Assembly (NCBI GenBank): GCA_009773805.1
Contig: WTXA01000002.1
Location: forward strand, 372,001 to 436,000
Length of the DNA: 64,000 bases
Direction: 5' to 3'
Source: Fusobacteriota bacterium
GTDB taxonomy: Bacteria > Bacillota > TC1
The first letter of the stretch is position 1; each line of letters begins with the position of its first letter. Below are positions 1,668 to 11,678 of the stretch, piece by piece. The translations under genes were made by a program, and so were the position numbers. The notes under the pieces are model-generated. The model had not been told where the DNA came from and did no database searches. It saw only the letters and a list, made by a program, of their open reading frames with translations.

Positions 1668-4482
1668 TTAGAATATCCTTTAAGTATTGTCCTGTGTAGG
1701 AAATTTCCATTTGCGCTACTTCTTCAGGGGTTCCTTCGGCTATAATTAGTCCGCCACCAGTTCCACCTTCTGGTCCTAAATCTATTATATGGTCTGCTGT
1801 CTTGATAACATCTAAGTTGTGTTCAATTACTACTACTGTGTTACCTTTATCTACTAGTTTGTCCAATACATGCAATAATTTTTCTATGTCAAAGAAGTGT
1901 AGTCCTGTTGTTGGTTCGTCTAGGATATAGAAGGTTTTACCAGTGCTTCTTTTTGATAGTTCTGTTGCTAACTTAATACGTTGGGCTTCTCCACCTGAAA
2001 GAGTGGTGGCTGGTTGTCCAAGTTTAATGTAGCTTAGTCCTACATCCATTAGAGTTTCCATCTTCCGCTTTATCTTAGGTATATTCTCGAAGAAGACAAA
2101 GGCTTCTTCTACTGTCATATTTAGTATGTCAGCTATATTCTTGCTTTTGTAGGTTACATCTAGTGTTTCTCTGTTGTATCTTTTACCTTCACAGACTTCA
2201 CAGGGTACATAAACATCTGGGAGGAAGTGCATTTCTATTTGGATTATGCCATCCCCTTTGCAGTTTTCACAGCGTCCGCCTTTGACATTGAAACTAAAGC
2301 GACCAGTTTTGTAGCCTCGGCTTTTGGATTCTTTGGTTGAGGCCATTAACTCTCTAATATGGTCAAAGACTCCTGTATAGGTTGCTGGGTTTGATCTTGG
2401 TGTTCTGCCTATTGGTGATTGGTCAATGTCAATTATTTTGTCAATTTTTTCTACACCTTTTATGGTTTTGTGTTTACCTGGACTTTCCTTTCGCTTGTTT
2501 ATATGTCTTGCTAAAGCCTTGTAGAGTATTTGGTTTATCAGTGTACTTTTTCCACTGCCTGATACTCCTGTAACGCAGGTAAATATCCCTAGTGGTATTT
2601 TCAGGTCTACATCTTGGAGATTATTCTCACTGGCTCCGGTTATTTCAAGATAGTCTTCCCCTTGTTTGCGTCTGGTTTCAGGTATCTTAATGCTTCGTTT
2701 TCCGCTTAGGTATTGTCCTGTTAAGGAGTTAGGGTTATCTATTACTTCTTGCGGTGTTCCCATAGCTACTACTTGGCCACCTTCTAGTCCAGCTCTTGGT
2801 CCTATGTCTACTAGTACATCAGCGCTGAGCATTGTTTCTTCGTCGTGTTCAACTATGATTAGGGTGTTACCAATGTCTCTTAGGTTCATTAGGGATTCTA
2901 TCAATTTAATATTGTCTCTTTGGTGTAAGCCTATGCTTGGTTCGTCTAGGATGTAAAGTACTCCAACTAGCCCAGATCCGATTTGGGTTGCGAGTCTTAT
3001 TCTTTGTGATTCTCCTCCTGAGAGGGTTGCGGCTCCTCTGCTTAGGGTGAGGTAGTTTAGTCCTACGTTGTTGAGGAAGTTTAGTCTTTCTTTTATTTCT
3101 TTAAAGATTTGTAGGGCTATTATGGTGTCTCTTTCGTTTAGTTCTAGATTGTTTACAAATTCTATTGCTTTGGTTATGGACATGTCTGTTAGGTCTGAGA
3201 TGTTTATGCCTCCTACCAAAACACTAAGTGCGTCTGGTTTTAGTCTTTTGCCATCACAGGCCGGGCATTTTTTTATTTCCATGTAACTTTCTATTTCTTC
3301 TTTGATTCCTTCACTTGTTGTCTCTCGATATCTTCTTTTGAGGTTTGGTATTATGCCTTCAAAAGGTTTTGTGAAGTTCCAGGTTCTACCTTCTTTGGAT
3401 TTGTAGACAAATGGTATTGGCTCTATGCTTCCGTAGAGTATTATGTTTTGTATTTCATTACTTAATTCTTCGAATGGTTGATCTAGAGTGAAGCCAAAGT
3501 GTTTGGCTAGTCCCTCTAGTAAACTTGGGTAGTAGTCGCTGATTTTTGAGTTCCATGGTCCTACGTTTATTGCTCCGTCGTTTAGGGATATGGAATCATC
3601 TGGTATGATCATGTCTTGGGAAAAGGTTTGGGTGAATCCCAGTCCTGTGCATTCAGGGCAGCTGCCGTATGGGGTGTTGAAGGAGAATAGTCTTGGTTCT
3701 ACTTCTTCTATGGTTACTCCACAGTCTAGGCAAACAAAGTTTTCGCTGAATAGAATTTCTTCAGCATCTTCTGGTTCTATTTTGGCTAGTCCTTCTCCAA
3801 GCTTCAAGGCAATCTCAAAGGAGTCTGCTAGTCTTCTTTCTATGCCTTCTTTGATGATTAGTCTGTCTATGACTGCTTCTATGGTGTGTTTTTTGTTTTT
3901 ATCTAAAATGATTTCTTCGCTGGTTTCTCTGATTTCTCCGTCTACTTTTACTCGAACGAAGCCGTCTTTTTTTAGTTTTTCGAATAGTTTGGTGTATTCT
4001 CCTTTTCTGCCTCTTACTAGTGGGGCTAGAAGTAGGGTTTTGGTGCCTTCTTCTAGGAGCATTACTTTGTCTACCATTTGTGGTATTGTTTGTTTTGTTA
4101 TTTCTGCTCCGCAGTTGTGGCAGTATACTGTTCCGACTCTTGCGTATAGTAGTCTCAAATAGTCGTATATTTCTGTTACTGTGCCTACTGTTGATCTTGG
4201 GTTTTTGCTTCTGTGTTTTTGGTCTATGGAGATGGCGGGTGATAGTCCTTCTATGTAGTCTACGTCTGGTTTTTCCATTTGTCCTAAGAATTGTCTTGCG
4301 TAGGAGGATAGTGATTCTACGTATCTTCTTTGTCCTTCTGCGTATATGGTATCGAAGGCCAGGGAGGTTTTTCCGCTTCCTGATACTCCGGTCATTACTA
4401 TCATTTTGTCTCTTGGTAGTTCTATGTTTATGTTTTTTAGGTTGTGTTCTCTTGCGCCTTTTATTATTAGTTTGTCTTTCAT
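1642..4482 (-). CDS. uvrA: UvrABC excinuclease subunit A
   Basis: UvrA is the ATP-dependent DNA damage sensor that loads UvrB in nucleotide excision repair. At 946 residues it has the usual length. Two ABC ATPase modules are visible: Walker [10 protein letters not shown] at about 32-40 and a second GVSGSGKST in the C-terminal half, each with its LSGGE signature ([12 protein letters not shown] and [12 protein letters not shown]). Zinc-binding cysteine pairs occur at CHNC (121-124) with a later CLDC pair, and CENC with CEVC in the second half. The ATG is preceded by an AGAAAGG ribosome site. uvrC follows with a 26-nt overlap. Confidence 0.97.
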
Positions 4483-6588: not shown

Positions 6589-7125
6589 TTAATCAACATT
6601 TTCAGCATTTAAATAGATTTCATCTAACTCCTTCTTACTTATCAACTTCTTAAGCACCAATGCAATAATGATAATGCCAGGAATATTAATCAACAACCTC
6701 GCAGCAGCAAACCTCATACCAAGAGCTGAAGATTCATAAAGAAACATTGGAATCTTAGTAGTAGACCAAGCCCCGATAAAAATCAAAATATTACTAAAAC
6801 TAACACCCTTCTTCATAAAAACAGCAGCAATCGGAAAAGCCCCATAAAGAGGACCAGCTGCAGCCGAACCAACTACAAATGAAATAAGGACCCCAACAAA
6901 CCCAGAACCCTCACCCATATACTTAACCATAACATCTCTTGGAACCCAAACATCAAGAAGCCCTAGAATTATAAAAATTGGAGGAACTACAATAAAAACT
7001 TCCAAAAAGGAATTAGCGGCAATACCAAGAGCCTTAGTACCAATTTCATAATTAATCATAGTAAAAATCAACATTCCCACAAACATAATCAAAAAAGCTC
7101 TATACCTTAATACCAGTTTTTTCAT
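6589..7125 (-). CDS. permease, second half (UPF0718/DUF318-like)
   Basis: A 178-residue membrane protein with about five helices. GSAAAGPLYGAFPIAAVFMKKGVSFSNILIFIGAWSTTK resembles the pore repeat of ArsP/UPF0718 permeases (DUF318), which export organoarsenicals or other anions in characterised members. Together with the preceding gene it appears to make a two-subunit version of a protein that is usually one chain with duplicated halves. Its ATG overlaps the upstream half-gene by one base, so the two are translationally coupled. Confidence 0.7.
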   Translation of the reverse strand: MKKLVLRYRAFLIMFVGMLIFTMINYEIGTKALGIAANSFLEVFIVVPPIFIILGLLDVWVPRDVMVKYMGEGSGFVGVLISFVVGSAAAGPLYGAFPIAAVFMKKGVSFSNILIFIGAWSTTKIPMFLYESSALGMRFAAARLLINIPGIIIIALVLKKLISKKELDEIYLNAENVD

Positions 7126-7604
7126 TAATACACCACCAATCCAATAAACCCAGCCACAATAAACGAAAAAAGAAAAGCCAATATATTTCTAGCAATAGAA
7201 ACCTTGACTCCAAAATACTTAATCTCTAATGGAAGAGTAATAACCCCAACCATCATCAAAGTAGATACAAAAACTGCAATCTGAGCATAACCTGCACCAG
7301 CCTCTAAAAGAATAGCTGCAGTAGGGAAAGCTACAAATGGCGGAATCATAGTAATAGCTCCAAAAGCTGCTGCTAAAACTACACCAAAAATACCAGAATC
7401 AGCCCCTATGAACTTCGAAATCAAAGCAGCATTCATTAACGCCAACATCAACCCCACAATTAATAATACCACCAACAATTGAGGCAGAATATTTTCAAAG
7501 GCCTTCCAAGCCTTTAATAATCCTAACTTGGTCTTTTCCTTACTCTTTAATAAAGAGAAAAACAAAAAGACAACAGCAAAAATATAGAATACTATATTAT
7601 CCAT
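7125..7604 (-). CDS. permease, first half (UPF0718/DUF318-like)
   Basis: A 159-residue membrane protein with about four to five helices. Its repeat block GAITMIPPFVAFPTAAILLEAGAGYAQIAVFVSTLMM is the counterpart of GPLYGAFPIAAVFMKKG in the next gene, as expected of two homologous halves. The start codon directly abuts the stop of the ArsR-type regulator and its AGGAG lies inside that gene. Substrate is unknown; the regulator's paired cysteines suggest a metal or metalloid (inference). Confidence 0.7.
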   Translation of the reverse strand: MDNIVFYIFAVVFLFFSLLKSKEKTKLGLLKAWKAFENILPQLLVVLLIVGLMLALMNAALISKFIGADSGIFGVVLAAAFGAITMIPPFVAFPTAAILLEAGAGYAQIAVFVSTLMMVGVITLPLEIKYFGVKVSIARNILAFLFSFIVAGFIGLVVY

Positions 7605-7904
7605 CTATTCATCTCCTAAACTTTTGGTAATTTTCATGATTTCAGACTTGGCCTTCTCCCAGCCAGTTTCGTTAAGGCTATATCTACACCACTTACCAAC
7701 CCTTTTACAGTTTATCAATCCAGCCTCACCTAATATTTTCATATGATGAGACAGTGTAGACTGCCCAATATCAAGACTCACAAGGAGCTCACAACCACAT
7801 AACTCACCCTTATTCAACAATCTTAAAATATACAACCTGTTCTCATCACCGAGAGCTCGGAATATTTGACTTATCTCTATATTATCCAAATCAGAACCAC
7901 CCAT
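7605..7904 (-). CDS. ArsR/SmtB-family metal-responsive repressor
   Basis: A winged-helix repressor of about 100 residues. The helix-turn-helix is QSTLSHHMKILGEAGLINCKRVGKWCRYSL, and the preceding helix carries GELCGCELL, equivalent to the ELCVCDL thiol motif by which ArsR binds arsenite. An in-frame ATG at 7919 exists, but the ATG at 7904 lies 7-8 nt after GGTGG and is preferred. It is the first gene of an operon with two half-permeases, and a long inverted repeat covers its own promoter, so it is most likely autoregulated and released by a thiophilic metal(loid). Confidence 0.88.
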   Translation of the reverse strand: MGGSDLDNIEISQIFRALGDENRLYILRLLNKGELCGCELLVSLDIGQSTLSHHMKILGEAGLINCKRVGKWCRYSLNETGWEKAKSEIMKITKSLGDE

Positions 7905-7940
7905 TATATTCACCACCATTCATAACTTATCACTATTAAT

Positions 7941-8017: not shown

Positions 8018-9547
8018 CTATTTCTTCACTTTGTTAATATACTTGATATCACCCTTTATAAGTTTAATACCTTCCTCAGTAATAACAAAACGCTCTTCCA
8101 TTTTATCCTGAACCTTTTCTAAATAACCATCAATCAAAAGATTTGTTATAAGAGTATTTATTTCGCCCTCGGTCCATTCTTTCATAATACCAAAGACACT
8201 TAAGGTATTTAATCTCTTGTCCTTAATACGTTGATTAAGTTTACCCTTTAACATAATAGCTATAGTACCCTGTCCATAATAACCCTTAGTATGATAAATG
8301 GCCGATAGGATTTTCTGACCTTCCACGCTTTGATCCACCTCAACAATATTACTCAAACAATTACCACAATTACCACAAGGCTCTATTTTTTCACCAAAAT
8401 GATTTAATACAAACTGTCTATAACAATCCCTAGAATGAGCAAACCTAACCATTTCCTCTAGCCAATCTTGCTTTTCCCTAAGACGCCATTTAAAATAGAC
8501 CCTGGACTTTCCAAGAGCCTTATTTACCATAACATCCTTAAGACCAAAAAGTAGTATACACTCACACGGAAGACCATCTCTACCACCACGACCAATTTCC
8601 TGGTAATATGACTCCAAACTAGCAGGCATATTTAAATGTATAATGTACCTGATATTATCCTTATCAAGTCCCATACCAAATGCATTGGTTGCCACCAATA
8701 CCTGATATTTATCCGCAAAGAACTCTTCTTGGACCAGGTTTCTTTCCTTCTTAGTAAGGCCTGCGTGATAAAGACCCACCCTATAACTATCTTTTAAGAG
8801 TTTCTTGGCTAATCGTTCTGCATCTAGCCTAGTATTACAATAGACAATACCTAGAGCATTCACTTTTTTCTTTATAAATTTTAAAACAAAATCGGACTTG
8901 TCTTCATATAGTTTAACATCTATAAATAAATTGGGCCTATCAAAGGTAGTCTTGAATATAACCGGTTCCTTCAACTTAAGAAGCTTGGAGATATCATCAA
9001 TCACTCTTTCATTGGCAGTAGCTGTAAAGGCCGAAATAACCGGTCTAATAGGCAAGCTGTCTAAAGCCAAGGCTATCTTTTTATACTTAGGTCTAAAATC
9101 ATGCCCCCACTGGGAAATACAATGAGCCTCATCAACAGCAACATGATCAATCTTCAATGTTTTTATTACATCTACAAAATCCTCGGAGAAAAGCTTTTCT
9201 GGAGCAATGTAGATGACCTTGTACCGCTCCTCCTTGATTTCTTCAATTCTTTCTCTCATTTGTTTAGGTGTTAAATGACTATTGAGGGAAGTGGAAGGTA
9301 CACCTCTAGCATTAAAAGTATCAACTTGATCCTTCATTAAGGCAACAAGAGGAGATATGACAATAGTTAAATTATCAAAGAAAATTGCCGGTAATTGATA
9401 ACATAGGGACTTACCAGTTCCTGTAGGTAAAATCCCTATGATGTCTCTCTTATTTAAAATATTAGTTATAATTTCTTCCTGAGGCTCTCTAAAACAATCA
9501 TAAGCAAAGTAGCTTTTAAGAGCCTCCCTTAATTCTATTCTTTTAAT
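8018..9547 (-). CDS. recQ: RecQ-type ATP-dependent DNA helicase, apparent ATT start
   Basis: A 3'-5' helicase of recombination and replication repair. Reading from 9547 gives 509 residues with every RecQ motif: FREPQEEII (motif 0), PTGTGKS at 41-47 (Walker A), DEAH at 139-142, the HAGL and IGRGGRDG motifs, the zinc-binding C...CGNCGNC cluster and an RQC winged helix; no HRDC domain. The first ATG is residue 71, after Walker A, and there is no ATG, GTG or TTG between the upstream TAA and residue 71. An ATT at 9547 sits 7 nt after a perfect AAGGAG that overlaps the stop of the ATPase gene, so ATT initiation is the simplest reading. Not a broken gene by any other sign. Confidence 0.9.
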   Translation of the reverse strand: MKRIELREALKSYFAYDCFREPQEEIITNILNKRDIIGILPTGTGKSLCYQLPAIFFDNLTIVISPLVALMKDQVDTFNARGVPSTSLNSHLTPKQMRERIEEIKEERYKVIYIAPEKLFSEDFVDVIKTLKIDHVAVDEAHCISQWGHDFRPKYKKIALALDSLPIRPVISAFTATANERVIDDISKLLKLKEPVIFKTTFDRPNLFIDVKLYEDKSDFVLKFIKKKVNALGIVYCNTRLDAERLAKKLLKDSYRVGLYHAGLTKKERNLVQEEFFADKYQVLVATNAFGMGLDKDNIRYIIHLNMPASLESYYQEIGRGGRDGLPCECILLFGLKDVMVNKALGKSRVYFKWRLREKQDWLEEMVRFAHSRDCYRQFVLNHFGEKIEPCGNCGNCLSNIVEVDQSVEGQKILSAIYHTKGYYGQGTIAIMLKGKLNQRIKDKRLNTLSVFGIMKEWTEGEINTLITNLLIDGYLEKVQDKMEERFVITEEGIKLIKGDIKYINKVKK

Positions 9548-9551
9548 TTTT

Positions 9552-11678
9552 CTACTCCTTGTTTCTTATAAATTTTTCCTTTATCGAAACAATTATATCA
9601 CCGACACGTTTAGTAATTCTAAAACAATTAATAATAGTTAACAATGAAACAAATAAATCTATTCCTATAGCAACTATCAAGAATCCTGTCGAAACATCAT
9701 TAAACATAATATACACAAATATACCTAACTTAGTAAGTAAACTTAATATTATATTCTGTGTAATTATATTATAGGTTCTTTTGCCTAAGTGAATTGTTTT
9801 GTATATTAGATTAAGATCTTCCTTCATTAAAACAATATCAGCAATTTGAGTAACTCTATCTAAACTACCTTTTAAGAAGGCAAAGCTAACATCAGATGCG
9901 GCCATAACAATACCATCGCTAATAGTATCACCAACAAAAGCAACCGTCTTACCATTTAGCCTTTTTTGTTCTCTTTTTATTCTATTAACTTTATCTTCTA
10001 TATTTAACTCGCCATAGATATTAGAAATGTTTAATGGTGCAAGGACTTCAGAAGCACCTTGTTTTCTTTCACCTGTTAAAACTGATACTTTATCTATTTT
10101 TAATTGTTTTAACTTCTCTACAACTTCAACACCTTCAGGTTTTAAGCTTTCCTCTAAAGCTAGAGATCCAATATATTGACCATCAACACCAACGTGTATT
10201 TGAGTTCCTTTATAGTCGTTAATTACTTCAACTCCTTGTTCCTGTAGAAAGTCTTCTGTTCCAACTACTATAGTCTTGCCTCCATATAAAGCCATGGCAC
10301 CTTTGCCTCGTTCTTCACGATACTTTTCTAGAAGCTCAATATTTAGTTCTTTTGTCATTGCTTTTTTAACTGCGTTAGCAATAGGATGCTTTGCTTGAAG
10401 TTCTCCAATTGCAGCATAGGTTAGAATAAACTCTTCTTTGACATTCTTGTAAGGTAATATTTCTTTAACTTTGTATTCTCCAGTTGTCAAGATACCTGTT
10501 TTTGTGAAAAACAAAGTGCTTAATTTACCAATTGCATCTATAGAGCCTGTATGTTTTATCAATACCCCTAGTTTCTTTGCTAGACTAAAAGCAAAGTTGT
10601 AGGCAATAGGTGTAGATAGTAACATTGCCCAAGGACATGAAACTGCTAAAAGAATTAGTCCTTTGTAAATCAACTGAGATGGATTATCTGAAAAGAAGCT
10701 TAATAAGAAAAGTATCAAGGCTATTGCACCAACTACTTTAACGTATATACTACCAATGCTCGCGCTAGTCTTGGCAAATCCTTTTTTTAATTCCATAGCT
10801 TCTTCAGTCTTTGTTATTATTTCCTTTAAGAGTCCTTCATTATATCGTTTTAACACTAATAGCTTCAGTGGTTTTTCTATATTTACACCACCGCTTTTTA
10901 GTATGCTGCCAGGCACTACTTCTTCTTCAAAGTTTTCATTTGATACAGAAGACATATCTATTGTGGATTTACCTTCCAATACTTTTGAATAAAGTGGAAC
11001 AACCTCACCTGATCTTACAACTATAATATCTTCTTCTTTAATTTCTTTTATTGGTGTAGGAAGGACTACTTTTCCATTAAGCTTGTACACTAGTGTTTCT
11101 TCTTTGTGAAGTATATCAGAAACATCCTTCTTTGCTAGATTTGAAACTTTCCAACTTAAGTAGTCAGCTACTAGGTAAATAGCTAGGACAATTAATGCTT
11201 CTAAATAATCCTTAATAACAAATGCTCCTATTATTGCCAAGGCAATAAGTAAGGATTCATTTATTTTTCTTTCCACAATTACTGTGTTATATATCTTTTT
11301 TATTAGGACTATAGAACAAAGTAACAAGCCAATAAGATAACCTACCCACTTGTATTCTACAGGTATGTATTGGGTATAGCTAATTGCGTACATTACTAAT
11401 CCAAGTACAAATAGTAATACGTTTTTTTTATTTATTTTTTTGTCTATATTCAATGTTTTTTCAGATATATTAATAGTGTCGTCATAATTATGAATAACAT
11501 CAATTATATCCTTGGTTGCCATTTTCTCGTCAGCATCCTTGACAAAGGTAACTTTCAATTTTTGTTGAAAGCTATGATAGGTTACTTTTTCTATGTCTGG
11601 CAATAGATTGATATCTTCTATGGCCTTTTTTAGAATGCTGTCATTTTCTACATGGCTGATAAAGAAGTTTTTTACCAT
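9552..11678 (-). CDS. P1B-type ATPase homologue lacking the phosphorylation aspartate (pseudo-ATPase)
   Basis: At 708 residues with the helix plan of heavy-metal P-type ATPases, it is full length and uninterrupted. Yet the DKTGT motif reads TKTGI at 392-396 (the phosphorylated Asp is Thr), the membrane CPC motif reads CPW (348-350), actuator TGES reads SNEN (246-249), TGD reads TGE (535-537), and GDGxND reads GDTISD (583-588). The nucleotide-domain HP (431-432) remains. The N-terminal ferredoxin-like region has no CXXC. It is predicted to be unable to form the phospho-enzyme; a metal-sensing, scaffolding or subunit role is possible but unproven. recQ follows directly. Transcribed from an extended -10 promoter. 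Confidence 0.85.
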   Translation of the reverse strand: MVKNFFISHVENDSILKKAIEDINLLPDIEKVTYHSFQQKLKVTFVKDADEKMATKDIIDVIHNYDDTINISEKTLNIDKKINKKNVLLFVLGLVMYAISYTQYIPVEYKWVGYLIGLLLCSIVLIKKIYNTVIVERKINESLLIALAIIGAFVIKDYLEALIVLAIYLVADYLSWKVSNLAKKDVSDILHKEETLVYKLNGKVVLPTPIKEIKEEDIIVVRSGEVVPLYSKVLEGKSTIDMSSVSNENFEEEVVPGSILKSGGVNIEKPLKLLVLKRYNEGLLKEIITKTEEAMELKKGFAKTSASIGSIYVKVVGAIALILFLLSFFSDNPSQLIYKGLILLAVSCPWAMLLSTPIAYNFAFSLAKKLGVLIKHTGSIDAIGKLSTLFFTKTGILTTGEYKVKEILPYKNVKEEFILTYAAIGELQAKHPIANAVKKAMTKELNIELLEKYREERGKGAMALYGGKTIVVGTEDFLQEQGVEVINDYKGTQIHVGVDGQYIGSLALEESLKPEGVEVVEKLKQLKIDKVSVLTGERKQGASEVLAPLNISNIYGELNIEDKVNRIKREQKRLNGKTVAFVGDTISDGIVMAASDVSFAFLKGSLDRVTQIADIVLMKEDLNLIYKTIHLGKRTYNIITQNIILSLLTKLGIFVYIMFNDVSTGFLIVAIGIDLFVSLLTIINCFRITKRVGDIIVSIKEKFIRNKE

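Follow-up and report, generated by a model that had tools for sequence, protein, structure and literature searches.

The recQ gene in the stretch of 64,000 nucleotides analysed here (the window; G000:C2:372001-436000, from a source genome of 1.68 Mb in 4 contigs, G000) is very probably translated from an AUU codon, ATT at position 9547 of the minus strand, located 7 nt after an AAGGAG Shine-Dalgarno (SD) sequence at the end of a P-type ATPase gene, with initiation that we infer to be weak, checked by IF3 and coupled to translation of the upstream gene. The AUU start itself, which is conserved in one clade of the genus, is well supported by sequence. Counted from this codon, the coding sequence (8018..9547, minus strand) specifies a RecQ protein of 509 aa.

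On direct reading of the minus strand, the recQ frame runs without interruption from 9565 to a stop codon at 8018 and is closed upstream by an in-frame TAA at 9568-9566; between this TAA and the first in-frame ATG (9335..9337) the frame contains no ATG, GTG or TTG, as the earlier note had claimed, and no CTG either. The ATT codon (9545..9547) and the AAGGAG sequence (9555..9560, both minus strand), previously placed 7 nt apart, were read at the same coordinates, and the peptide predicted from ATT is identical to the MKRIEL start that had been proposed. The observation thus stands, but the interval originally assigned to it (9338-9560) was loosely bounded, since the end of the upstream gene falls inside: the TAG of the P-type ATPase gene (9554-9552) sits between AAGGAG and ATT. 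In a 320-kb sample of G000, an SD match at least as long as the 6 nt of recQ occurs at 132 of the 261 assigned gene starts. The recQ SD is thus good but ordinary and differs from the extended SDs reported for AUU/AUA starts in S. aureus; spacings of 6-8 nt are modal among the same starts. The anti-SD used for scoring was the consensus sequence, a search for 16S in G000 having found none. Predicted folding near the recQ start is weak (-3.7 kcal/mol versus a mean of -6.4, sd 3.4).

The genome collection used includes ten genomes of the class, five of them in the same genus (the window's own included) and one in a sister genus. Comparison of the start region in related genomes, which the earlier note had asked for, revealed ATT after AAGGAG at the homologous recQ codon in four of the five genus genomes (G000, G002, G003 and G004), with spacings of 7, 7, 6 and 7 nt, respectively; the fifth, G001, carries TTG at this position, and the single sister-genus genome, G005, has GTG one codon further on. 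Codons 2-4 vary among the four ATT genomes (AAA AGA ATA, ATA AAA TTT, ATT AAA ATT and ATT GAT ATT, in the order above) in both sequence and residue, and the conserved ATT therefore stands out; codon 5 is GAA in all four. Given that four of the five genus genomes share ATT at this codon, with AAGGAG 6-7 nt upstream and with variation in the three codons that follow, the missing canonical start is not an assembly accident, and the earlier doubt over an indel hiding an ATG is answered by the same ATT in three other genomes.

The shared ATT alone is modest or weak evidence for a start: of the 34 isoleucine positions that the four recQ genes have in common, 8 are ATT in every one of them. The strength of the case for an AUU start comes from the combination of its position, the SD, the lack of an alternative and the TTG and GTG codons of the outgroups. 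As the four ATT genomes form one clade, the ATT start may be a single evolutionary event, the simplest reading being that a UUG or GUG would have changed to AUU once, in their ancestor. In G004, an ATG and a GTG are found 18 and 14 codons, respectively, before the ATT, within the ATPase gene and with no evident SD; an upstream canonical start was rejected because the frame is closed nearer to ATT in the window, G002 and G003, the in-frame TAA of G003 being separated from ATT by a single codon (ATA).

Near-cognate codons are clustered at this site (ATA ATT ATT in G003, ATA ATT ATA in G002), and the ATPase stop lies at most 12 nt from ATT in all four genomes, an arrangement that would also suit initiation at a neighbouring weak codon, such as the ATA at 9538 or another member of the G003 run, or reinitiation at any near-cognate codon by the stop. 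We consider this improbable, since only the ATT at 9547, the sole shared near-cognate codon with proper SD spacing, keeps the same codon and a spacing of 6-7 nt in four of four genomes, and the canonical codons of the outgroups fall at the ATT codon itself (G001) or one codon on (G005). Still less credible is an ATPase-RecQ fusion produced by frameshifting or stop readthrough, in which recQ would have no start of its own: in each of the four ATT genomes the two genes do adjoin or overlap, with a common frame in G003, but in the three others the frames disagree, the ATPase stop moves from -7 to +12, and what is retained is an SD.

The requirement for a start at or near 9547 was further examined at the protein level. 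The 70 codons ahead of the ATG at 9337, which is codon 71 when counted from ATT, encode IKRIELREALKSYFAYDCFREPQEEI...PTGTGKSLCYQ, a stretch which we take to comprise the Q motif and Walker A. This translation agrees with the previous assignment of the Q motif and Walker A (PTGTGKS) to residues 1-70, as does an alignment with E. coli RecQ (PDB 1oyw), which begins at query residue 7 (E 6.9e-107). The protein scores 437.8 bits against TIGR00614 (RecQ family; cut-off 219.8) and contains the Pfam DEAD and Helicase_C domains (PF00270 and PF00271) as well as the zinc-binding and RQC domains of RecQ (PF16124 and PF09382); a helicase core complete with Walker A and Q motif requires a start at or near 9547. 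No Pfam match to HRDC was obtained at E 0.001, and the TIGR01389 score (577.1 bits) is under the cut-off of 640.2; the HRDC domain is present in many RecQ members, not all, and is not defining. Over codons 2-70, dN/dS values of 0.04-0.15 were obtained for the six pairs of ATT genomes, so that the codons preceding ATG 9337 evolve under protein-level selection. For Walker A itself, G002, G003 and G004 have PTGKGKS, and the RecQ proteins of the window, G001 and G005 have PTGTGKS.

A start at ATG 9337 is the choice of a gene caller restricted to ATG, GTG and TTG, this being the first canonical start, and would yield a 439-aa protein without Walker A. We find such a start hardly tenable: TCTCCTCTTGTTGCCTTA precedes the codon and offers no Shine-Dalgarno, the DEAD domain would be truncated, its profile being matched only from position 58 with PTGTGKS missing, and the protein constraint on codons 2-70 is strong. 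A sequencing error or a decaying recQ gene has next to no probability. Some of the sequences do come from metagenome assemblies, and one further gene of the sample shows a frameshift when compared with G004, but the same ATT is present in four genomes, the recQ frames are full-length and stop-free, and dN is low across the whole gene; the relatives refute this reading unless all four share an identical error.

How unusual such a start is was evaluated by scanning 320 kb of G000 (G000:C2:230001-550000) against 320 kb of G004 for homology upstream of the first canonical start. A looser first scan, in which conserved leaders and shadow frames stretched the homology, was replaced by a refined scan that retained 263 conserved non-shadow ORFs. 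Among these, recQ ranks first, with homology from codon 1 and the first canonical codon at position 77 of the stop-to-stop frame, and it is unique apart from two frameshifted frames, namely o85, entered via a probable -1 frameshift, and o471, broken in G000 relative to G004. Rows with at least 10 codons of upstream homology were judged by eye, and the others among them, of at most about 20 codons, were as a group taken to be probable leaders or gene overlaps; o47, with homology 32 codons before its first canonical start, was rejected as an odd start, the canonical codon being an ATG with a strong SD.

Across the phylum, a pattern combining AGGA, ATT and RecQ motifs matched 10 of 398 genomes, the five of the genus and five others. 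The ATT matched in G001 belongs to ATTG, that is, to its TTG start; four of the other matches (G268, G381, G087 and G190) have an in-frame DTG within a few bases after ATT, and the last, G279, has a GTG near by and a translated motif that is probably from another ATPase. An ATT-only recQ is thus found by this pattern, which requires AGGA and fixed motif spacing and covers only recQ genes with such an SD, in 4 of the 398 genomes, each a member of this genus. With DTG in place of ATT, the pattern matched 47 of the 398, an upper figure, since some hits, including that of G004, are out of frame or perhaps not RecQ.

Regarding the mode of initiation, the AUU at 9547 would be read by initiator tRNA (fMet), giving a RecQ that begins fMet-Lys-Arg-Ile-Glu-Leu. 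By analogy, initiation would be weak and restrained by IF3, ribosomes finishing the ATPase gene would probably assist it, and RecQ would stay at a low level, increasing when IF3 is in short supply. In S. aureus (PMC13009471), AUU and AUA starts are accompanied by extended SDs and, in reporter assays under poor-medium conditions, reach about 10% of the AUG value; for E. coli, PMC2268962 describes excess IF3 as lowering non-canonical initiation and reinitiation alike. The infC gene, found in nine of the ten genomes of this class searched (L036-L044), appears to start with ATA in eight and with ATT in one (G002). Upstream starts are impossible at four of the nine loci, where the frame is closed by a stop at -9; the other five have an in-frame GTG at -9, inside the SD, which was discounted by judgement. 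IF3-sensitive initiation, and hence IF3 control of recQ, is plausible by analogy because of the AUU/AUA literature and of infC starting on ATA or ATT in this class.

Translational coupling of recQ to the ATPase gene is likewise probable by analogy, and it fits because the first base of the ATPase stop lies at -7, +12, -6 and -4 relative to the recQ ATT in G000, G002, G003 and G004, respectively; in G002 the stop falls after the ATT, which was counted against the coupling step.

The upstream gene (9552..11678, minus strand) encodes a P-type (P1B-like) ATPase and ends in a TAG whose first base is 7 nt ahead of the A of the recQ ATT; the ATPase-recQ gene pair is present in all six family genomes. 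In all six, the ATPase homologue has FTKTG for DKTG, SNEN or SNES for TGE, and CPW or SPW for CPC; we take the lost motifs to be the phosphorylated Asp (DKTG), the TGE of the actuator loop and CPC. The protein is apparently a conserved pump that is catalytically dead. Elsewhere in the window (6589-7919, minus strand), a gene for an ArsR/SmtB-type regulator precedes two short permease halves of ArsP_1-like type, perhaps a split permease; one of the halves scores under the Pfam cut-off. Two further loci were noted in G000. At about G000:C2 513045 (L059, about 3000-3100), a G GGT TTT site in a pair of overlapping frames, laid out alike in G004, points to a probable -1 programmed frameshift, the pair resembling phage tail assembly chaperone genes. 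At about G000:C2 266290 (L046), a membrane protein gene that is continuous in G004 is frameshifted at a GGGGG run in G000, representing either a true lesion or an assembly error.

An intragenic inverted repeat, ATAGGGATTTTACC..GGTAARTCCCTAT, lies over the Walker A codons of recQ (codons 37-49; 9403..9439, minus strand; 109 nt into the gene); it is present in six of six family recQ genes and almost codon-identical across these divergent genomes. Within this hairpin window, 10 of the 12 conserved residues use an identical codon in all six genomes, as against 46 of 220 gene-wide. The best recQ window has a hypergeometric value of 3.2e-6, a single-window value with several hundred windows scanned; the best window of the upstream ATPase piece, the only control gene, reached 1.6e-2. 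When codons were resampled by genome usage, equal or lower energy was obtained in 1-5 of 3000 trials per genome, and dinucleotide shuffles gave z -2.8 for the hairpin of the window. Covariation was not significant: one pair changes on both sides, a score matched by 107 of 500 shuffles. The case for the hairpin accordingly rests on synonymous constraint, because covariation leaves the fold unproven. For the first 70 codons in the G000-G004 pair, recQ is fourth of 106 genes in excess synonymous identity; its pairwise synonymous identity is thus high, though not unique.

A search of G000 with the exact arms ATAGGGAT/ATCCCTAT missed recQ itself, whose second arm in the window has AGTCCC, and was repeated with a Y/R pattern, which found no second copy in G000. 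Outside the family, none of seven matched stretches (one of them probably not RecQ; L023 was unmatched by the expression used) contained a similar hairpin, and terminator, promoter and Rfam scans gave nothing useful. Our guess is that an RNA hairpin acts here on mRNA stability or translation. A more far-reaching scheme, which we regard as doubtful, is that recQ has joined an IF3 regulon in a lineage with infC on AUA or AUU, its AUU start letting helicase supply follow IF3 and ribosome status and the Walker A hairpin providing further control of this mRNA at a second level.

Few natural AUU starts are conserved, and each one adds to the list a gene whose level is set by start-codon discrimination. 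By analogy, the AUU start would most likely keep RecQ scarce and tied to the start-codon proofreading factor, and a genome-stability helicase under such a start would couple recombination capacity to the translation state. For annotation, gene callers limited to ATG, GTG and TTG would drop 70 residues together with the ATP-binding site, and RecQ could be misread as inactive. The hairpin over Walker A and the ATPase without its catalytic Asp may be as important as the AUU start.

Overall, the AUU start belongs to a known kind, represented by infC, pcnB and staphylococcal cvfC1, and is new for recQ as far as searched: no paper on an AUU or non-AUG start of a bacterial recQ was found in a literature search lacking most subscription journals. 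One of these, pcnB of E. coli, is akin to recQ in encoding a nucleic-acid enzyme with an AUU start, and Binns and Masters reportedly described in 2002 that this enzyme is held scarce by its AUU start; it is, however, another enzyme in another phylum, and the recQ start adjoins the stop of an upstream gene. The gene for IF3, infC (AUU in E. coli, AUA in S. aureus), likewise has a near-cognate start after a clear SD, and its initiation is low and IF3-sensitive (PMC13009471 and PMC2268962); in this class infC is itself on ATA or ATT. Yet infC is self-regulating, whereas RecQ is no translation factor, making direct feedback impossible, and the recQ case is confined to one genus. Conserved non-canonical starts in Bacillota are also represented by staphylococcal cvfC1 (AUU) and ccpN (AUA), with reporter output in poor medium at about 10% of that from AUG; according to PMC13009471, these have extended SD pairing and measured use, whereas the recQ start has a 6-nt SD and is predicted from sequence. 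Finally, in a start-codon mutant of E. coli recJ, also a recombination gene, both IF3 and an upstream ORF influence translation, which depends on them according to PMC2268962; recJ is there a mutant gene (with a GUA start, according to a title cited in that source), whereas the recQ start is natural and conserved.
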